NCBI RefSeq assembly: GCF_014656295.1
Contig: NZ_BNCD01000008.1
Location: 62,001-126,000, forward strand
Length of the DNA stretch: 64,000 nucleotides
Reading direction: 5' to 3'
Source of the DNA: Streptomyces sulfonofaciens
GTDB lineage: Bacteria; Actinomycetota; Actinomycetes; Streptomycetales; Streptomycetaceae
Positions 20,855-31,734 of this stretch are shown here, one piece after another (position 1 is the first letter of the stretch; each line of letters opens with the position of its first letter). The notes beneath the pieces were generated by a model that worked only from the letters and a program-made list of their open reading frames with translations, had not been told where the DNA came from and made no database searches. The translations under genes were made by a program, and so were the position numbers.

Positions 20855-21610
20855 TCATCCTCCACTGGGACCGAACCGCTCGGTGCGGATGCGTTCGGGA
20901 GCGTGGCCCAGGTCCACCAGCAGATCGGCGGCCGTCTCGACGAAGCCGGTGGGTCCGCAGACGTAGCACAGGGGGGCGGACCGCGGCGGCCACCCCGCCT
21001 CGGACAGGTCCCGCGCCGCCAGCCGTCCCGCCGGCCTGGGCCAGCCCGCCGGGGCGCCGCGGGTGTAGATGCACACGGTCTCAAGGCCCGGCTCGCTGCC
21101 GTCCAGTTCGGAGACGTACAGCCGGTCCTCGGGCGAGCGGACGGAGTACAGCAGCCTGAAGGGCGCTTTGCTGCCGGCCGCTCGGCGGGTGCGGACCATC
21201 GCCATGAGCGGCACCAGCCCCGAGCCGCCGGCGACCAGCAGCACCGGCTCGGTCTGCTCGGGCCGCCAGACGAACCAGCCGCCCACCGGCCCGCGCACCT
21301 CCACCAGGTCTCCGACGTCCAGGACGTCCGCGAGGTACGGCGACACCTCGCCGTCCCGGACACGCTGCACGGTCAGCTCGATGCGGTCGGCGTCAGGAGC
21401 CGACGCCAGGGAGTAGCTGCGCTGGGTGCTGTAGCCGTCCTCCGCCGTGAGGCGCACGTCGACGTGCTGGCCCGCCAGGTGCCCGGGCCAACCGGGAACG
21501 TCGAAGGCCAGGGTGTGCGCGAGGGCGGACTCGGCGCGGCGGCCGGTCAGCTCGGCGGGCCGCCAGCGCAGCCGTTCGCCTAGTCGCCCTGGTACCGCTG
21601 CTCGCGCCAT
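20855..21610 (-). CDS. Ferredoxin-NADP(H)-reductase-type flavoprotein
   Basis: 251-residue FAD/NAD(P)H oxidoreductase that should pass electrons to or from the neighbouring molybdo-enzyme. The FAD domain shows HVDVRLTAEDGYSTQRSYSL (RxYS motif) and ADVLDVGDLVEVRGPVGGWF; the NAD domain shows VLLVAGGSGLVPLMAMVR, LLYSVRSPEDRLYVSEL, and the C-terminal LCYVCGPTGFVETAADLL. ATG at 21610 has GGAG upstream and overlaps the sulfite-oxidase-like gene by 31 bp; its TGA is one base from the ATG of the DUF6510 gene. The three genes are clearly one operon. No iron-sulfur domain is fused. Confidence 0.9.
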   Translation of the reverse strand: MARAAVPGRLGERLRWRPAELTGRRAESALAHTLAFDVPGWPGHLAGQHVDVRLTAEDGYSTQRSYSLASAPDADRIELTVQRVRDGEVSPYLADVLDVGDLVEVRGPVGGWFVWRPEQTEPVLLVAGGSGLVPLMAMVRTRRAAGSKAPFRLLYSVRSPEDRLYVSELDGSEPGLETVCIYTRGAPAGWPRPAGRLAARDLSEAGWPPRSAPLCYVCGPTGFVETAADLLVDLGHAPERIRTERFGPSGG

Positions 21611-22179
21611 GGGTCTCCGTAGTCGTGGTATCCGGCGGTCTCCCAGAAGCCGCGCTCGTCCTCCGTGAGCAGTTGGATCTCGTGCACCCATTTGGCGGAC
21701 TTCCACAGGTACAGATGGGGGACCAGCAGCCTGGCCGGGCCGCCGTGCTCGGGGGCCAGGTCCGCGTCGTCATAGCGGTAGGCGATCCATGCCCGCCCGT
21801 CGAGGAGGTCCTCCAGGGGGAGGTTGGTGGTGTAGCCGCCGTAGGCGTGGACCAGCGCGAAGCGGGCGGACGTCGTCACGTCCCGCATCAGCACGTCCAG
21901 GGAGACGCCCTCCCACCGGGTGCCGAACTTGGACCACTTGGTGACGCAGTGCAGGTCCACGGTGGGCGTCTCGCTGGGCAAGGCCGTGAACCCCGCCCAG
22001 TCCCAACTGTGCTGCTCGCCGGTCTCGGTGCGGATCGTGAACTGCCACGCCTCGCGGTCGACGCGCGGCGTGGGCCCCGCCGACAGCACCGGGAAGTCGG
22101 TGGTCTCGTACTGGCCGGGGGGCAGTGTGTGGCGGGAGTCCCGGGCCCGCCCGCGGAACCCGCGCGAAATGATGACCAT
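21580..22179 (-). CDS. Sulfite-oxidase-like molybdopterin protein (YedY/SUOX-type)
   Basis: 199 residues of the oxidoreductase molybdopterin-binding domain. The molybdenum-ligating Cys is in DLHCVTKWSKFGTRWEGV, typical of the family; later segments ALVHAYGGYTTNLPLEDLL and EHGGPARLLVPHLYLWKSAK, WVHEIQL complete the fold. No Tat signal is visible, so the protein is probably cytoplasmic, unlike MsrP. First gene of an operon with a ferredoxin reductase and a zinc-ribbon protein, which suggests a self-contained NAD(P)H-linked molybdenum redox system. ATG at 22179 with a modest GAAGGGCGGC. Substrate (sulfite, sulfoxide or other) unknown. Confidence 0.9.
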   Translation of the reverse strand: MVIISRGFRGRARDSRHTLPPGQYETTDFPVLSAGPTPRVDREAWQFTIRTETGEQHSWDWAGFTALPSETPTVDLHCVTKWSKFGTRWEGVSLDVLMRDVTTSARFALVHAYGGYTTNLPLEDLLDGRAWIAYRYDDADLAPEHGGPARLLVPHLYLWKSAKWVHEIQLLTEDERGFWETAGYHDYGDPWREQRYQGD

Positions 22180-23961: not shown

Positions 23962-25434
23962 ATGTCCGATGCCCTCGCGCGACCCGCCACCGGGTCGACC
24001 GCCGCACCACGGGCGAACCCCGTCGTGGTGGTGCTCGCCCTGGCAGGGATCGTGGTGTCGCTGATGCAGACACTGGTCATCCCACTGATTCCCGAACTCC
24101 CCTCCCTCCTGCACGCCTCCACCTCCGACACCACCTGGGCGGTGACCGCCACCCTGCTCGCGGGCGCCGTCTCCACACCGGTGATGGGGCGGCTCGGGGA
24201 CATGTACGGCAAGCGGCGCATGCTGCTGGTCAGCCTGGTCCTGCTGGTGGCGGGTTCCTCCGTCGCCGCGCTCAGCGGCTCCCTGGCGCCCATGGTGGTG
24301 GGACGGGCCCTGCAGGGCATGGCGGCCGGGGTGATCCCACTCGGCATCAGCATCATGCGCGATGAACTGCCGCCGGACCGGCTCGCCGCGGCGACCGCGC
24401 TGATGAGCGCCTCGCTCGGGGTGGGCGGCGCGCTCGGCCTGCCCGCGGCCGCGTTCCTGGCCGAACGCGCCGACTGGCACGTGCTGTTCTGGACCTCGGC
24501 CGCACTCGGTGCTGTCGTGACCGTGCTGGTGCTCCGACTGGTGCCGGAGTCCGCCGTGCGCACCGGCGGCCGTTTCGACCTGGTGGGCGCGGTGGGGCTG
24601 TCGGCCGCGCTGGTCTGCCTGCTACTGGCGATCTCCAAGGGCGGCGACTGGGGCTGGACCGACGGACGCACCGATGGTCTCTTCGGCGCCGCGGCGCTGG
24701 TGCTGGTGGTGTGGGGCTGGTGGGAACTGCGCGTCCCTCGGCCACTGGTGGACCTGCGCACCACGGCCCGCCGCCAGGTGCTGTTCACCAATCTCGCCTC
24801 GATGGTGTTCGGCTTCTCGATGTTCGCGATGGCGCTGCTGCTTCCACAACTGCTCCAGATGCCGAAGGCCACCGGGTACGGCCTCGGGCAGTCGATGCTG
24901 GCCGTCGGCCTGGTCATGGCGCCCAACGGCCTGGTGATGATGGCGATGGCACCGCTGTCCGCACGTCTCTCCCGCTCCCGCGGACCGAAGGTGACCCTGA
25001 TGGTCGGCGCGGTCGTCGTGGCCGCGGGGTACGGGCTCAACATCGTGCTGATGTCCGCCGTCTGGCAGCTCGTACTGGTCTCCAGCATCGTGGGCGCCGG
25101 CATCGGACTCGCCTACGGTGCCATGCCCGCGCTCGTCATGGCCGCCGTGCCCGTGTCCGAGACCGCTGCCGCCAACAGCCTCAACACGCTGATGCGGTCC
25201 ATCGGCACCTCCGTCTCCAGTGCGGTCGCCGGTGTCGTACTGGCCCAGATGGTCACCGCCTTCGGTCCTGCCGTCCTGCCCTCGCAGAACGCGTTCCGGG
25301 TGGTCATGGCCATCGGTGCCGGTGCCGCCCTGATCGCCCTCGGCTTCGCCTCGTTCCTCCCGGCCCGGCGCCCGCCCAGCACCGCGCCGACGGCACCCGC
25401 GTCGGCACGGACGTCGCCGGCCGTGCAGGGGTGA
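23962..25434 (+). CDS. MFS multidrug exporter, DHA2 (14-helix) family
   Basis: 490-residue proton-driven exporter. Fourteen hydrophobic segments are visible. Family motifs: MQTLVIPLIPELPSLL in helix 1 with the following loop, MGRLGDMYGKRRMLLVSLVL (motif A, GxxxDxxGxR/K-K-R), GRALQGMAAGVIPLGISIMR (motif B region) and GGALGLPAAAFLAE (motif C-like). C-terminal tail is Pro/Ala-rich. ATG at 23962 follows ACGGAGG; the longer upstream frame is not membrane-like. Divergent from a TetR regulator, the classic arrangement of an inducible efflux pair. Substrates unknown. Confidence 0.9.
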   Translation: MSDALARPATGSTAAPRANPVVVVLALAGIVVSLMQTLVIPLIPELPSLLHASTSDTTWAVTATLLAGAVSTPVMGRLGDMYGKRRMLLVSLVLLVAGSSVAALSGSLAPMVVGRALQGMAAGVIPLGISIMRDELPPDRLAAATALMSASLGVGGALGLPAAAFLAERADWHVLFWTSAALGAVVTVLVLRLVPESAVRTGGRFDLVGAVGLSAALVCLLLAISKGGDWGWTDGRTDGLFGAAALVLVVWGWWELRVPRPLVDLRTTARRQVLFTNLASMVFGFSMFAMALLLPQLLQMPKATGYGLGQSMLAVGLVMAPNGLVMMAMAPLSARLSRSRGPKVTLMVGAVVVAAGYGLNIVLMSAVWQLVLVSSIVGAGIGLAYGAMPALVMAAVPVSETAAANSLNTLMRSIGTSVSSAVAGVVLAQMVTAFGPAVLPSQNAFRVVMAIGAGAALIALGFASFLPARRPPSTAPTAPASARTSPAVQG

Positions 25435-25442
25435 GGCATTGG

Positions 25443-25464
25443 CGGCCCCGGCCGACCGGGGCCG
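25443..25464 (+). terminator. Hairpin after exporter gene
   Basis: CGGCCCCGG, loop CCGA, CCGGGGCCG: a perfect 9-bp stem starting nine bases past the exporter stop codon. Confidence 0.75.
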
Positions 25465-25930
25465 TCGAGGGCGCCCCGGCACGGTGGGGCCGCAGCGCTG
25501 CCCGACCCGGCGCCGCGCGACCCGCCACCGTCCCGCGCCGATCCGGTACCGCCACACACCGATCAGGCACTGCCTCATCGACCTGCCACTGCCCGCGCAC
25601 CGACCTGCCGCCGTCCCGCACCGACCCGCTACTGCCTCGCATCGACCAGCCACTGCACCGCACCAGCCCGCCGCCGCGTCCCGGGCCCAGCCCTACCCGG
25701 TCCAGCCCAATCCGGTCCAACCTGGTCCCACCCGGTCCAGTCCGGCCGTGCGCCGCCAGGGCCGTGCGCCGCCCGGCCGTGGCGGTACCGCGTGGGCGCC
25801 GCAGGGGTGTCGTACCGGCCGGCTCGGGCGCCGGGCGCAGCCCCCACCGGCCGCCCCCTACGTCTTCCGGCCATGATCCCAGCGTCTTCCGGCCGCGTGC
25901 CGTACGACCAGGGGGCCGTATGAACGGGCA
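25465..25930. other. Gene-free low-complexity stretch
   Basis: 465 bp of C-rich degenerate repeats: drifting CGCACCGACCTGCC-type units (25530-25670), then CCGGTCCAGCC-type units (25690-25745). No ribosome binding site or codon bias on either strand. Confidence 0.55.
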
Positions 25931-25935
25931 CCGCG

Positions 25936-25965
25936 TTGACATCCAGGGCCACACTCGTTCATATT
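25936..25965 (+). promoter_or_regulatory. Promoter of the leader ORF / ABC operon
   Basis: Consensus TTGACA (25936-25941), 18-bp spacer, CATATT (25960-25965), then six bases to an ATG. This places the transcription start at or next to the ATG of the short leader ORF. Confidence 0.65.
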
Positions 25966-25971
25966 TTCCGC

Positions 25972-26064
25972 ATGTTTGCCAGCCATGCTTCGCATCGCAC
26001 CGCCATTGAGCTCACGCTCATCGGCGTCTGCGCGCTGAGCGTGGCCGATATTCACTGTCGCTGA
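25972..26064 (+). CDS. Leaderless 30-residue leader peptide with two Cys
   Basis: A short ORF beginning at the predicted transcription start, six bases after the -10 element. It encodes 30 residues: a His/Ser-rich start (MFASHASHRTA), a hydrophobic middle (IELTLIGVCALSV) and the end ADIHCR, with Cys codons at positions 20 and 29. It sits alone in otherwise non-coding DNA, 313 bp before a peptide-type binding protein gene, and is followed after seven bases by a stem-loop. Leaderless, Cys-containing short ORFs ahead of sulfur-related genes act as cysteine-responsive attenuators in mycobacteria; that role here is inference. Being too small for standard gene callers it could easily be missed. Confidence 0.6.
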   Translation: MFASHASHRTAIELTLIGVCALSVADIHCR

Positions 26065-26071
26065 ACCGTTC

Positions 26072-26106
26072 CCCTCCGACGAGCGCGACGCTCTGCCACG
26101 GGAGGG
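26072..26106 (+). terminator. Possible attenuator stem-loop after the leader ORF
   Basis: Inner hairpin GAGCG-CGA-CGCTC (26081-26093) nested within CCCTCC (26072-26077) and GGAGGG (26101-26106). It begins seven bases after the leader stop codon. Whether it terminates or sequesters is unknown. The remaining 26107-26377 has no gene. Confidence 0.4.
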
Positions 26107-26377
26107 CTGCCCGCGGGCCGCGCCCGACCGGGGTGCACCTGCACCACGCCGTTCTCCGCAGCTCCCACCCTCCGCGCTCCCGGTGCCGCACCACCCCGTC
26201 CCGGCACCTCAGGGACCCTGGCCGCCGCGGCCCGTTCAGTACCGCCCGTACCGCCCGGCCCCGTGCCCGCACGGAGCCGAACCCCGGACCCGCGCCACAC
26301 GCGTCACCACGCCACAGCCGACCGCACCGAAACGGTTCCGTCCCGGATCCGATGGCCGACACCCCCGAGAGGCCCCC

Positions 26378-28090
26378 ATGCGTCATCCGTCCCGCACCAA
26401 CGCCCGCCGCGCCGCGGCCGCATCCGTCAGCCTGGCCCTTGCCACCGCAGCGGTCGCCTGTGCGGGACCGAAGGACAAGGACGAGGGCGCCAAGGGCACC
26501 CCGCACAAGGGCGGCACCCTCACCATCCTCAACACCGAGGCGCAGACCGACTTCGACCCGGCCCGGCTCTACACCTCCGGCGGCGGCAACGTGCCCTCCC
26601 TGGTCTTCCGGACCCTGACCACGCGCAACCGCGCCAACGGCGCCGCGGGCTCCAAGGTCGTGCCCGACCTCGCCACGGACCTCGGCACACCCAGCAAGAA
26701 CGCCACCGTCTGGACGTACACCCTGAAGAAGGGCATCAAGTACGAGGACGGTTCGCCCATCACCAGTGCCGACATCAAGTACGGCATCGAGCGGTCGTTC
26801 GCCGCGGAACTCTCCGGAGGGGCCCCGTACCTGCGTGACTGGCTCGTCGGCGGCGCCGGCTACCCCGGCCCCTACAAGGACAAGAAGGGGCTCGACTCGA
26901 TCGAGACGCCCGACGCGCGGACCATCGTCTTCCACCTGAACAAGCCCGAGGGCGAGTTCCCCTTCCTGGCCACCCAGACGCAGTTCACGCCGGTGCCCCG
27001 GAGCAAGGACGACGGCACCAAGTACGAGAACCACCCCCTCTCCTCCGGGCCGTACCGCGTCATCAGCAACGAGAACGATGGCGAGCACCTCGTACTGGAA
27101 CGCAACCGGTACTGGTCCGCCGCCAACGACACCCAGCGCAAGTCCTACCCGGACCGTATCGACGTCCGCTCCGGCCTCGACTCCGCCGTGATCAACCAGC
27201 GGCTTTCGGCCAGCCAGGGAACCGACGCCGCCGCCGTCACCACCGACACCAATCTCGGGCCCGCCGAACTCGCCAAGATCAGCGGTGACAAGAGCCTGGC
27301 CGCCCGGGTCGGGACCGGGCACTTCGGCTACACCAACTACCTCGCTTTCAATCCGAAGGTGAAGCCGTTCGACAACCCGAAGGTCCGCGAGGCCATCGCC
27401 TACGCGATCGACCGCTCCTCGGTCATCAACGCGGTCGGCGGCACCTCTCTCGCCGAGCCGGCCACCACCTTCCTGCCGAACCAGGAAGCCTTCGGCTACA
27501 CGCCCTACGACCCGTTCCCCGCGGGCAAGTCCGGGAACCCGAAGAAGGCCCGCGAGGTGCTGGCCGAGGCAGGCTACAAGCACGGCATCACGCTCACCCT
27601 CACTCACGCCAACCAGGACCCCGAGGCCGGCCCCGAGATCGCCACGGCCGTCCAGGACGCCCTGAAGAAGGCGGGCATCACCGTCAAGCTCAGGGGTCTG
27701 GAGATCAACCAGTACCGCGACGCCTACAAGGACGTGAAGGCCGAGCCCGGCTTCTTCCTCGCCCGCTGGGGCGCCGACTGGCCCTCCGGCGGCCCCTTCC
27801 TCGCCCCCATCTTCGACGGCCGCCAAGTCGTCAAGGACGGCGCCAACTTCAACCACGCCCAGCTCGACGATCCCGCCGTCAACAAGGAGATCGACGCGAT
27901 CAACAAGCTGACGGACCTGAACGCCGCCGCCAAGCGGTGGGGCGCACTCGACAAGCGCATCAGTGCACAGGCGCTGGACGTGCCGCTGTTCCACCCCGTC
28001 TACAAGCGGCTCTACGGCAAGGACGTCAAGAACATCGTGATCAGCAACTGGACCGGCGTCCTCGACGTCTCCCAGGTCGCGGTCAAGTAG
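26378..28090 (+). CDS. Family 5 ABC transporter substrate-binding lipoprotein (peptide-type)
   Basis: 570-residue lipoprotein binding peptides, opines or similar solutes on the outer face. Signal peptide MRHPSRTNARRAAAASVSLA then AAVAC gives the lipobox Cys. Family 5 features: KGGTLTILNTEAQTDFDPAR, VPDLATDLGTPSKNATVWTY, then YTLKKGIKYEDGSPITSADI, LSSGPYRVISNEN, and AIAYAIDRSSVINAVGG. ATG at 26378 has a GAGAGG upstream; the open frame extends upstream into leader DNA. First structural gene of a four-gene operon (SBP, two permeases, fused ATPase). If the upstream leader ORF is a Cys sensor, the solute may be a thiol-containing peptide; this is conjecture. Confidence 0.93.
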   Translation: MRHPSRTNARRAAAASVSLALATAAVACAGPKDKDEGAKGTPHKGGTLTILNTEAQTDFDPARLYTSGGGNVPSLVFRTLTTRNRANGAAGSKVVPDLATDLGTPSKNATVWTYTLKKGIKYEDGSPITSADIKYGIERSFAAELSGGAPYLRDWLVGGAGYPGPYKDKKGLDSIETPDARTIVFHLNKPEGEFPFLATQTQFTPVPRSKDDGTKYENHPLSSGPYRVISNENDGEHLVLERNRYWSAANDTQRKSYPDRIDVRSGLDSAVINQRLSASQGTDAAAVTTDTNLGPAELAKISGDKSLAARVGTGHFGYTNYLAFNPKVKPFDNPKVREAIAYAIDRSSVINAVGGTSLAEPATTFLPNQEAFGYTPYDPFPAGKSGNPKKAREVLAEAGYKHGITLTLTHANQDPEAGPEIATAVQDALKKAGITVKLRGLEINQYRDAYKDVKAEPGFFLARWGADWPSGGPFLAPIFDGRQVVKDGANFNHAQLDDPAVNKEIDAINKLTDLNAAAKRWGALDKRISAQALDVPLFHPVYKRLYGKDVKNIVISNWTGVLDVSQVAVK

Positions 28091-28112: not shown

Positions 28113-29105
28113 ATGAGTGAGGCCCTGCTGCCCACCGGACCGGTCGCGGATGAGCTACAGCCCCTTCCCGCCTCCGGCGGGCGCCAGTTCCTGCGTCGTC
28201 TGCGCTCCCAGCCGGCCACGCTGGTCGCCGCCGGGATCGTCGTCCTGCTCATCGTGGTCGCGCTCGCCGCGCCACTGCTCACCGCCCTGGAGGGCCAGGA
28301 CCCGACCACCTACCATCCGCATCTCGTCGACTCGGCCCGCGGCGGAGTGCCGGTCGGCCCGCTCGGCGGGATCAGCGCAGAACACTGGCTCGGCGTGGAA
28401 CCCCAGACGGGTCGGGACCTGTTCGCTCGCCTCGTCTACGGGGCCCGGGTCTCCCTGGGCGTCGCCTTCGCCGCCACCTTCGTGCAACTGGTGATCGGGC
28501 TTGCCGTCGGATTGGGCGCGGGACTGGGCAGCGGCTGGCTGGATCAGATCCTCAGCCGTATCACCGACATCATCATCGCCCTACCGCTCATGATCATGGC
28601 CCTCGCGGTGCTCGCCATCGTTCCTCCCAGCTTTCCCCGACCCGTGCTGGTCGCCGTCATCATCGGACTGATCGCCTGGGGTTCCACGGCGAAGATCGTG
28701 CGGGCGCACACCATCACCCTCAAGCAACTCGATCACGTCGCCGCCGCGCGGCTCAGCGGCTGGAACACCTGGCACATCGCCCGCCGTGAACTCCTGCCCG
28801 CCCTCGCCGCTCCCGTCATCACCTACGGAGCACTGCTGATCCCCCTGAACATCACGGTGGAGGCCGCTCTCTCCTTCCTCGGCGTCGGCGTCAAACCACC
28901 CACCCCGTCCTGGGGCCAGATGATCACTTCCGCCAATGTCTGGTACCAGGCCGCACCGCAGTACCTGCTCTTCCCCGCCGGGGCACTGTTCGTCACCGTG
29001 CTGTCGATGACCGTCTTCGGTGACGGGATACGCACCGCACTCGATCCGCGGGCCGCCTCCCGTCTGAGGATCGGCACGGGACGCAGGCGGGAGGCCAAGG
29101 CATGA
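28113..29105 (+). CDS. ABC transporter permease, DppC-like
   Basis: 330-residue inner-membrane permease. First helix about residues 38-58 (LVAAGIVVLLIVVALAAPLL), a long external loop with EHWLGVEPQTGRDLFARLVY (typical of DppC/OppC), then five helices. The ATPase-contact EAA loop is DHVAAARLSGWNTWHIARRE. The end LSFLGVGVKPPTPSWGQMI is diagnostic of this subfamily. GGGAAGG lies before the ATG, 22 bp after the binding protein. The next permease overlaps its stop by ATGA. Confidence 0.92.
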   Translation: MSEALLPTGPVADELQPLPASGGRQFLRRLRSQPATLVAAGIVVLLIVVALAAPLLTALEGQDPTTYHPHLVDSARGGVPVGPLGGISAEHWLGVEPQTGRDLFARLVYGARVSLGVAFAATFVQLVIGLAVGLGAGLGSGWLDQILSRITDIIIALPLMIMALAVLAIVPPSFPRPVLVAVIIGLIAWGSTAKIVRAHTITLKQLDHVAAARLSGWNTWHIARRELLPALAAPVITYGALLIPLNITVEAALSFLGVGVKPPTPSWGQMITSANVWYQAAPQYLLFPAGALFVTVLSMTVFGDGIRTALDPRAASRLRIGTGRRREAKA

Positions 29106-30154
29106 GTACACTCACCCTCCGCCGTCGCCCACTGGTGTTGCGCCGGCTGCCCGGCCTCCAGGGTCTCGGTGGATTCCTCCTACGCCGGATGGTCTCCGCC
29201 GTCGCCACCCTGCTGGCCATCACGGTGATCGTCTACGCGGTGTTCTACATCGTGCCCGGCAACGTCGCACAGATCACCTGCGGTGAGCGCTGCTCGCCGG
29301 CCCAGGTCCACCAGGTCGCCGCACAACTGCACCTGGACGACCCGGTGTACCAGCGCTACTGGGACTTCCTTCGCGGGATCGTCGCCGGCCGCTCCTTTTC
29401 CACCGGCACCTCGATCGAGCACTGCGCAGCCCCCTGCCTCGGACTGTCGTACCGGAGCGACCAGCAGGTCACCGAGCTGATCACCGCCAAACTCCCGGTC
29501 ACCGGGTCGCTCGCCCTGGGCTCCCTCGTGATCTACCTGCTCCTCGGCGTCGGTACCGGACTGCTCGCCGCCTGGCGGCGCGGCCGGGTCTCCGAGCGGC
29601 TGCTGACCGGTCTCACCCTCGCCGGCACCGCCACCCCCGTCTTCGTCATCGGCCTCCTGCTGATGATCGTTGTCTGCGGCCAGCTCCAGTGGCTGCCCTT
29701 TCCCCAGTACGTGCCCCTGACCGAGGACCCCGAGCAGTGGGCATGGAACCTGCTGCTGCCGTGGACCTCCCTCGCCCTGATCGAAGCGGCCAAGTACGCC
29801 CGGGTGACCCGTGCCGCGATCCTGGAGACACTGGCCGAGGACCATGTGCGCACCTTCCGCGCCTACGGCCTCTCCGAACGGTCGGTCCTCGGACGGCACG
29901 CACTGCGCGGCGCTCTCGCGCCCGTCATCGCGCTGGCCGCCAACGACTTCGGCTCCATGTTCGGCGGCGCCGTCCTCACCGAGACCCTCTTCGGACTGCC
30001 CGGTATCGGCCAGGCACTCGTGAGTGCGGTCAACGTCGCCGACCTTCCCGTGGTCGTCGGCATGGTGCTGGTCACCGGATTCTTCGTCGTGCTGGCCAAT
30101 CTCGTCGCCGATGTGCTGTACGCGGTGGCCGACCGGAGGGTGGTGCTCGTATGA
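29102..30154 (+). CDS. ABC transporter permease, DppB-like
   Basis: 350 residues, partner permease of DppC. First helix after residue 25 (MVSAVATLLAITVIVYAVFY), external loop CGERCSPAQVHQVAAQLHLD with DPVYQRYWDFLRGIVAG, as in DppB. The loop contains several Cys (CGERC, CAAPC), more than usual. EAA loop: EDHVRTFRAYGLSERSVLGR; end TETLFGLPGIGQALVSAV is characteristic. ATG overlaps the preceding stop (ATGA) and its own stop overlaps the ATPase start in the same way, so all three proteins are translationally coupled. Confidence 0.92.
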   Translation: MSTLTLRRRPLVLRRLPGLQGLGGFLLRRMVSAVATLLAITVIVYAVFYIVPGNVAQITCGERCSPAQVHQVAAQLHLDDPVYQRYWDFLRGIVAGRSFSTGTSIEHCAAPCLGLSYRSDQQVTELITAKLPVTGSLALGSLVIYLLLGVGTGLLAAWRRGRVSERLLTGLTLAGTATPVFVIGLLLMIVVCGQLQWLPFPQYVPLTEDPEQWAWNLLLPWTSLALIEAAKYARVTRAAILETLAEDHVRTFRAYGLSERSVLGRHALRGALAPVIALAANDFGSMFGGAVLTETLFGLPGIGQALVSAVNVADLPVVVGMVLVTGFFVVLANLVADVLYAVADRRVVLV

Positions 30155-31734
30155 GTCTCGTGGAGGTGCACGGACTGACCGTCGAGTACGACACCACACG
30201 TGCCGTGGACGACCTCTCCTTCTCCCTGAACAAGGGCGCCGCCCTCGGTCTCGTCGGGGAGTCCGGCTCCGGCAAGAGCACGGTGGCCGCCGCCCTGCTC
30301 GGCCTGCACCGAGGCACCGGGGCACGGGTCACAGGCTCTCTTCTGGTGGCCGGCACCGATGTGCAGCGGGCCACGGACGAGGAACTCCGGGGACTGCGCG
30401 GCGCACGGGCCGCGATGGTCTTCCAGGACCCGCTGTCGTCGTTGGACCCCTATTACGCGGTCGGTAACCAGATCGCCGAGGTGTACCGCAGGCACACCCG
30501 CGCCGGGCGCCGGGCCGCGCGTGAGCGCGCCCTCCAGGTGCTCGACCAGGTCGGCATTCCCGACGCCGCCCGCCGGGCACGTATGCGTCCCCACGAGTTC
30601 AGCGGCGGCATGCGCCAGCGCGCGCTGATCGCCATGGCCATGGCCTGCGAGCCTGAACTCCTCATCGCCGACGAGCCGACGACCGCGCTCGACGTCACCG
30701 TCCAGGCTCAGATCCTCGACCTGCTCCATTCGCTGCGCGAGGACACCGGCATGGGCCTCCTGCTCGTCACCCATGACGTCGGCGTCGCCGCGGAGAGCGT
30801 CGACGACGTCCTGGTGATGAGGAGCGGCCGTGCCGTCGAGCGCGGACCGATCAACACCGTGCTGCGCACACCGGCCGAGTCGTACACCCGCGAACTTCTC
30901 GGGGCCGTGCCCCGCGTGGACGCCCCCACCGCCCCAAGGGCCGCGATCACCGGCGACGCCCTCCTCACCGCCACGGGGCTGCGCCGTGACTTCGGCCGGG
31001 GACGACGTTCCGTCACCGCCGTCGACGGTGTGTCCCTCACCCTGCACAGGGGCGAGACCTTGGGCATCGTCGGCGAGAGCGGCAGCGGTAAGACCACTCT
31101 CGGGCGGATGCTCGTCGGGCTGCTGGGCCCGACCGCCGGCACCCTCGCGCACGGAGCGGAGCGGCCCCGCGTCCAGATGGTCTTCCAGGACCCGGTCGCC
31201 TCCCTCAACCCGAGGCGCAGCATCGGTGAGTCCATCGCCGACCCGCTGCGCGCCCAGGGAGAACGCGAGGGGGCACGGCTGCGTGCTCGCGTCGGCGACC
31301 TCCTCCAACGCGTCGGCCTCGATCCCGCGCACTACGACCGCTATCCGCACGAGTTCAGCGGTGGACAGCGCCAGCGGGTGGGCATTGCCCGTGCCCTCGC
31401 GCCCAGTCCCGACCTCATCGTCTGCGACGAACCGGTTTCCTCGCTCGATGTCACGACTCAGGCGCAGGTGATCGCGCTGCTGGCCGAGATCCAGCAAGAC
31501 CTCGGCCTCGCGCTGGTGTTCATCGCGCACGATCTCGCCGTGGTCCGACAGGTCAGCGACCGGGTCGCGGTGATGAAGGAGGGAAGTGTCGTCGAGTACG
31601 GCACGGTGGAGGAGGTGTACGGAGCGCCGCGCGATCCCTACACCCAGCGGCTCCTCGCCGCGGTGCCGACGCTCGATCCGGTCGTCGCGACGGAGCGGAG
31701 GACGGCTCGGCGTGCGCTGACCCCTACATGGTGA
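30151..31734 (+). CDS. Fused dual ABC ATPase (DppD-DppF type)
   Basis: 527-residue protein with two complete ABC domains in tandem that power the peptide-type importer. Domain 1 (about 1-255): Walker A GESGSGKSTVAAAL, signature FSGGMRQRALIAMAMA, Walker B LLIADEPTTALD. Domain 2 (about 270-520): Walker A GESGSGKTTLGRML, signature FSGGQRQRVGIARALA, Walker B LIVCDEPVSSLD. Most systems use two separate subunits; fusion is known in actinobacteria. ATG at 30151 overlaps the permease stop. No clear terminator follows; GGCAG-GGTCGG-CTGCC near 31743 is weak. Confidence 0.95.
   Translation: MSLVEVHGLTVEYDTTRAVDDLSFSLNKGAALGLVGESGSGKSTVAAALLGLHRGTGARVTGSLLVAGTDVQRATDEELRGLRGARAAMVFQDPLSSLDPYYAVGNQIAEVYRRHTRAGRRAARERALQVLDQVGIPDAARRARMRPHEFSGGMRQRALIAMAMACEPELLIADEPTTALDVTVQAQILDLLHSLREDTGMGLLLVTHDVGVAAESVDDVLVMRSGRAVERGPINTVLRTPAESYTRELLGAVPRVDAPTAPRAAITGDALLTATGLRRDFGRGRRSVTAVDGVSLTLHRGETLGIVGESGSGKTTLGRMLVGLLGPTAGTLAHGAERPRVQMVFQDPVASLNPRRSIGESIADPLRAQGEREGARLRARVGDLLQRVGLDPAHYDRYPHEFSGGQRQRVGIARALAPSPDLIVCDEPVSSLDVTTQAQVIALLAEIQQDLGLALVFIAHDLAVVRQVSDRVAVMKEGSVVEYGTVEEVYGAPRDPYTQRLLAAVPTLDPVVATERRTARRALTPTW

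Follow-up and report, generated by a model that had tools for sequence, protein, structure and literature searches.

Among the closest described counterparts of the leader considered here are the polycysteine leaderless short ORFs of mycobacteria, which Canestrari et al. are said to have described in 2020. In the available parts of the literature, the likeness lies in the apparently leaderless layout, in Cys codons placed just before the stop codon and in the sulfur genes found downstream, but the leader found in our window (the whole stretch of DNA that was analysed, 64 kb from Streptomyces sulfonofaciens) carries a single Cys codon at its end, which is also the only invariant one, and thus lacks a polycysteine run. 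For one uORF of the polycysteine type in M. smegmatis, ribosome occupancy has been reported in a forerunner study (PMC4633059, accessible part), and the papers citing the mycobacterial work, as far as their available text goes, report a ribosome waiting for Cys-tRNA as the principle of regulation.

Leader candidates of actinobacterial cys operons, known from a 2005 comparative study (PMC1262725), share with the window leader Cys codons near the stop and the lack of a terminator; in the available text of that study they come from Mycobacterium, P. acnes and B. longum, S. coelicolor and S. avermitilis are among the genomes compared, and no Streptomyces cys leader is named. Leaderless short leaders, several of them without a clear terminator, have also been listed in S. 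lividans TK24 (PMC8079986); the accessible part of the article gives eight, for Leu, Trp, Ala, Ile, Met and Thr, and calls none of them cysteine-dependent. In Rhodobacterales, uORFC-8-2, upstream of cysS, is likewise a uORF with Cys codons but, unlike the window leader, it is described in the excerpted text as having tandem Cys codons, a dominance of UGC and an intrinsic terminator (PMC8632094). Two further NCBIfam models, NF042934 (cis_reg_atten) and NF042936 (leader_Ms4527A), find sister leaders in the genome of the window itself, with sulfur genes behind several of them and UGU at one fixed Cys, but their peptide motif is of the HVDLxRxxSAxC type and differs from that of the window leader.

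The family to which the window leader belongs, NCBIfam NF042937 ('Ms4533A family Cys-rich leader peptide'), is itself known. What appears to be new here is its operon target, a peptide-type importer, and a rule on the codon used at its conserved Cys: our literature search found no paper on the leader of the importer or on the codon rule, either of which Canestrari et al. 2020 may contain.

The Leader ORF and the Importer Operon

The original prediction placed a near-consensus promoter six bases ahead of the ATG of a 30-codon ORF with Cys at positions 20 and 29. Promoter, six-base gap and ORF are all present (Table 1), and the product of the ORF, MFASHASHRTAIELTLIGVCALSVADIHCR*, ends in HCR. 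With up to two mismatches allowed, the promoter pattern has no other match in the 64 kb, where 0.14 matches were expected. The family-5 solute-binding protein encoded downstream has as its closest solved chain by sequence 2wok, the oligopeptide binding protein 2 of clavulanic acid biosynthesis (E 1.1e-81), and is followed by genes for two permeases and for a double ATPase (the protein used in the domain search for the latter carried three extra N-terminal residues).

Table 1. Positions of the leader, its signals and the importer genes in the window.
Feature	Position	Strand	Remarks
Promoter	25936..25965	+	-35 TTGACA, 18-nt spacer, -10 CATATT
Leaderless-type 30-codon leader ORF	25972..26064	+	NF042937 (Ms4533A family) match
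Cys20 codon (UGC)	26029..26031	+	Without conservation in relatives
UGU Cys codon 29, proposed sensor codon	26056..26058	+	Invariant in compared leaders
Nested stem-loop after leader stop	26072..26106	+	z +0.85 vs shuffles
Shine-Dalgarno-like GAGAGG before binding-protein gene	26367..26372	+	Sequence
Family-5 solute-binding protein gene (SBP_bac_5)	26378..28090	+	Pfam PF00496, E 1.1e-75
OppC/DppC-type permease gene	28113..29105	+	PF00528 + PF12911
OppB/DppB-type permease gene	29102..30154	+	PF00528 + PF19300
Double ATPase gene, both ABC domains in a single protein	30151..31734	+	Two ABC_tran stretches + oligo_HPY

The leader was compared with the best 80 of 273 loci retrieved by a search with the binding protein, all from Streptomyces or Kitasatospora, which gives 81 sequences once the window is added; a DNA search with the leader region in 61 genomes of the genus, which returned many short matches outside the leader too, served to collect loci only. 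In a pattern search, TTGACA followed after 17-19 nt by a -10-like hexamer that ends 5-7 nt before the leader ATG was recovered in 80 of the 81 sequences. None of them has GGAG, GAGG or AGGA just before the leader ATG, and every one has a Shine-Dalgarno (SD)-like motif before the binding-protein gene. As far as sequence can tell, the promoter spacing and the absence of an SD motif fit a leaderless transcript.

All of the best 80 of 273 loci have an ATG-started leader before the same family-5 binding-protein gene, with start-to-start distances of 250-389 nt (406 nt in the window), and in these comparisons leader and operon are the conserved unit. This spacing bears on another role that could be given to the ORF, that of a plain translational antenna which, coupled to the operon, feeds ribosomes to it without any sensing of cysteine. 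Such a role has been proposed for gene-proximal leaders, with a peak at 10-11 bp (PMC4833913, available text), but distances of 250-406 nt, together with a conservation of peptide and UGU codon that it leaves unexplained, make it very improbable here.

Further features of the neighbourhood were recorded. The DNA of the first codons of the binding-protein gene (ATGCGTCAACCGTCC) and of the bases preceding them is unusually conserved for a signal-peptide region (L032-L111). Upstream of the leader, relatives have a DUF3152 gene (a Pfam assignment confirmed for L079 alone, L079:4116-5651), whose end motif lies within 700 nt in 77 of the 81 sequences and is not found in the window, where an MFS transporter gene (23962-25434) precedes the leader. 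Farther upstream, a minus-strand gene of the window (21580-22179) encodes an oxidoreductase that has a molybdopterin-binding domain (PF00174).

Family Membership and Selection on the Leader

Against NF042937 the window leader scores 44.3 bits (cut-off 31, E 1.5e-11) over positions 1-30 of the 30 of the model, sharing the LALI..V..L.VADI.C core, and it is the only match above the cut-off in its own genome. Matches above the cut-off occur in 92 of 199 genomes of the same genus, in 72 of 151 genomes of a second family, here f3, and, at the level of the phylum, in 11 of 396 genomes, the centre genome being counted in these samples; none of 14 control genomes has one; 100 of the 199 same-genus genomes had no match at all at E 0.01. 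Going by the name of the model and by the neighbouring genes, f3 is presumably Mycobacteriaceae or a close family. Eight f3 genomes (G590, G606, G617, G634, G650, G665, G701 and G712) hold two matches each, which in seven of them lie about 1.5-1.8 kb apart on the same contig, as if a unit of leader and binding protein had been duplicated.

Among the 81 sequences the peptide is almost fixed from AIEL to the penultimate Cys. This penultimate codon, Cys29 in the window, is the only Cys invariant in all 81 leaders, so that only one of the two Cys positions originally put forward as the signal of the leader is borne out: Cys20 is peculiar to this strain (1 of 81), and 79 leaders have a Cys three codons later. 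The leader ends in CC in 17 of the 81.

The frame also shows conservation with synonymous changes. In the comparison of the window with the other 80 sequences pS is 0.42 and pN 0.12, and the two shifted frames give pS/pN of 0.13/0.15 and 0.05/0.29. Over a longer distance, between the 81 Streptomyces/Kitasatospora leaders and 35 from f3, pS is 0.64 and pN 0.26 for the 17 codons of the conserved core, ELALIxVxxLxVADIxC, which ends at the proposed sensor codon. Because synonymous change exceeds amino-acid change per site in this frame, the 30 codons are very probably translated, and the product very probably matters in itself, beyond its Cys codon alone; by these measures the frame is real and under purifying selection. 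Short ORFs abound in any such stretch, but an origin by chance is practically excluded for this one by the family match, by its presence in all of the best 80 of 273 loci and by the excess of pS over pN.

The conserved core raises the question of whether the peptide itself acts. A nascent chain of the TnaC type could, from the exit tunnel, set a pause at the UGU or at the stop codon, in which case the sensing of cysteine or of a sulfur metabolite would depend on the peptide as well as on the Cys codons. In favour of such an arrest peptide, ELALIxVxxLxVADIxC is kept between Streptomyces and f3 with synonymous change, though only one Cys is common to all leaders, and the 17-codon core ends exactly at the sensor codon; as in TnaC, conserved residues other than the regulatory one would lie near enough to the pause site to be in the exit tunnel. 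The conservation of the peptide could, however, serve another role, and the strict use of UGU described below points to decoding, so that we regard arrest by the peptide as a doubtful explanation.

The UGU Codon

The invariant Cys is encoded by UGU in all 116 NF042937 leaders compared (81/81 from Streptomyces/Kitasatospora and 35/35 from f3), a count of related sequences that, like the others given below, is inflated by kinship and does not represent independent events. The other Cys codons of the same 81 leaders are UGC in 102 cases and UGU in five, the binding-protein genes have 80 UGC and one UGU, and in long GC3-rich frames from the operon loci UGU makes up about 11% (841 UGC, 101 UGU). 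In f3 the contrast is weak, as UGU prevails there at the remaining Cys positions too (25/35).

The same preference is found in the sister leaders of the NF042934 and NF042936 models, in which the Cys nine residues past the HVDL Asp reads UGU in all 39 sequences scored of the 41 given, the other Cys codons of these frames being UGC in 54 cases and UGU in 17. This set comprises loci L187-L199 from the genome of the window and L202-L230 from a sample of the class, with L223 and L224 unscored, and it includes six own-genome matches below the cut-off (two of them to NF042936) and 29 class loci taken among the best-scoring; the scoring pattern required a Cys at the site, and leaders without it would go uncounted. 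One sister-type leader copy without a Cys at the UGU site is in fact present in another genome, G219.

UGU could be a mere by-product of RNA pairing. This is possible for the Streptomyces NF042937 leaders, the end of which can pair, but it is unlikely as a general cause, as in the sister family the base that follows UGU is not fixed. It is tempting, if still a minority view in our own estimate, to regard actinobacterial sulfur leaders as a class of UGU-programmed sensors, in which a rare UGU, read by wobble at one fixed Cys, would be enough to stall the ribosome thanks to the conserved nascent peptide upstream, across two leader motifs and unrelated operons, that of the importer among them. 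A single tRNA usually reads both Cys codons in bacteria. If this holds here, the competition between tRNA isoacceptors by which published theory explains the choice of regulatory codons (PMC1183508, available text) would not apply.

Genes Behind NF042937 and Sister Leaders

When loci were fetched by the leader model instead of the binding protein, then among those with DNA to inspect the same family-5 binding protein was present in 34 of 34 Streptomyces loci and a SubI-like one in none (this set includes the window and two matches below the cut-off), and in f3 a SubI-like sulfate-type binding protein followed in 35 of 35 loci and a family-5 protein in none. The f3 leaders also differ from the window leader, which precedes the peptide-type importer and ends in HCR, in that 28 of the 35 end in CC, CCR or CCCC. 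These comparisons suggest that one sensor peptide may have been put before two unrelated uptake systems.

The genome of the window contains, besides the leader studied here, six sister leaders above the cut-off of NF042934 and four weaker ones, and five below the cut-off of NF042936. For seven of 12 such loci a gene was identified within about 500 nt, and six of these genes belong clearly or likely to sulfur metabolism; for the remaining five no downstream gene was identified. A cysteine synthase and an OAH/OAS sulfhydrylase gene match their own models above the cut-off; the matches below it are alkanesulfonate-monooxygenase-like, NtaA/DmoA-type monooxygenase, mercaptopyruvate-sulfurtransferase-like and sulfite/nitrite-reductase-like genes and, as the seventh, a flavin-reductase-like gene. 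Furthermore, G219 carries an importer operon of this kind (binding protein 74% identical) whose NF042937 leader, at 25.6 bits, stays under the cut-off; some 2 kb away is a gene for an NtaA/DmoA-type monooxygenase, again with a Cys leader of its own (L231:5474-14362). Between the two, G219 has a 272-aa gene without a Pfam or NCBIfam match, located behind the sister-type leader that lacks the Cys of the UGU site.

Sulfur is the most likely signal, judging from the sulfate-type targets in f3, the sulfur genes behind the sister leaders and the neighbourhood in G219. The link between sulfur or cysteine supply and the importer, advanced in the original prediction, finds good support. The thiol peptide that was suggested there as a possible solute is a guess.

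RNA Structure and Transcription Termination

A nested stem-loop does follow the leader stop, as had been claimed, but it is no stabler than its shuffled versions, 162 of 200 of which fold at least as well (Table 1). The Rfam scan of the window returned nothing above the gathering score. Over the 43 nt after the stop, z is below -1 in 68 of the 81 sequences, with hairpins other than that of the window, which differs in sequence and whose own stretch has a z of -0.08.

These hairpins could be part of an RNA switch, in which the leader end, the post-stop hairpin and the SD region would form mutually exclusive helices. Besides the frequency of stable post-stop hairpins, several blocks complementary to the SD region are present, and in the window the accessibility of the SD rises from 0.27 to 0.58 when a ribosome covers the leader. 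However, values of 0.54-0.61 are obtained at all the other pause sites, so the effect is not specific for UGU, and equilibrium folding of the 81 sequences gives no general opening, the mean accessibility being 0.154 with a ribosome on the UGU and 0.178 without a ribosome. Consensus folding (RNAalifold, 81 reduced sequences) yields 32 pairs, of which one shows two-sided change, in two sequences. The apparent helix between leader and SD (mean fraction 0.33, window 0.59) was rejected, being no better than in synonymous recodings; this control covered 42 entries, made up of every second sequence and of L071, which was counted twice. With the window hairpin differing in sequence as well, a switch of this kind seems somewhat unlikely, if less so than the other alternatives.

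At 25400-26700 no intrinsic terminator-like site was found, which sets the locus apart from a classical transcription attenuator. The same absence, together with the length of the leader region, would suit a Rho-dependent attenuation, in which fast translation of the leader exposes a long untranslated stretch to Rho and a paused ribosome changes that exposure. Rho-dependent control was proposed for mycobacterial cys operons in the comparative study of 2005 (PMC1262725, accessible text), but the citing papers, in their available parts, present the regulation in mycobacteria as translational, and we consider Rho an unlikely basis of the regulation.

Proposed Mechanism

The reading that we favour, and hold to be likely from the comparisons above, is that a cysteine-responsive leader ORF controls the family-5 ABC importer operon with its four genes. 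At low levels of charged tRNA-Cys, the ribosome would pause while the UGU occupies its A site and the conserved segment ELALIxVxxLxVADIx lies in the exit tunnel, and the pause would raise the expression of the downstream genes; when cysteine is plentiful, the ribosome would run off and expression would stay low. The step from pause to expression might be the release of the ribosome-binding site of the binding-protein gene, as described for mycobacteria, or protection from Rho. In turn, an organic compound containing sulfur would be scavenged through the importer. The simplest reading is a ribosome that waits for Cys-tRNA at the UGU. Against it counts that a single Cys codon is conserved; in theory, few regulatory codons lower the sensitivity of attenuation (PMC1183508, available text).

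Of the amino-acid-responsive attenuator originally envisaged, what stands is a selected cysteine leader of the leaderless type, above the cut-off of a family named after a mycobacterial leader and tied to the importer operon in all of the best 80 of 273 loci; a terminator at 25400-26700 and, in the folding of the 81 sequences, a UGU-specific release of the SD were not found.

Implications

If the class of UGU-programmed sensors is real, the way in which UGU is decoded, by wobble or through a tRNA-Cys modification that depends on sulfur, would itself belong to the sulfur signal. These GC-rich genomes otherwise favour UGC, and a strict UGU at the sensor position makes a simple rule that can be tested directly. 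For Streptomyces, in which this peptide-type importer is common, the leader would offer a handle on its regulation: this leader 'says sulfur', and a shortage of sulfur in the cell probably turns the importer on.
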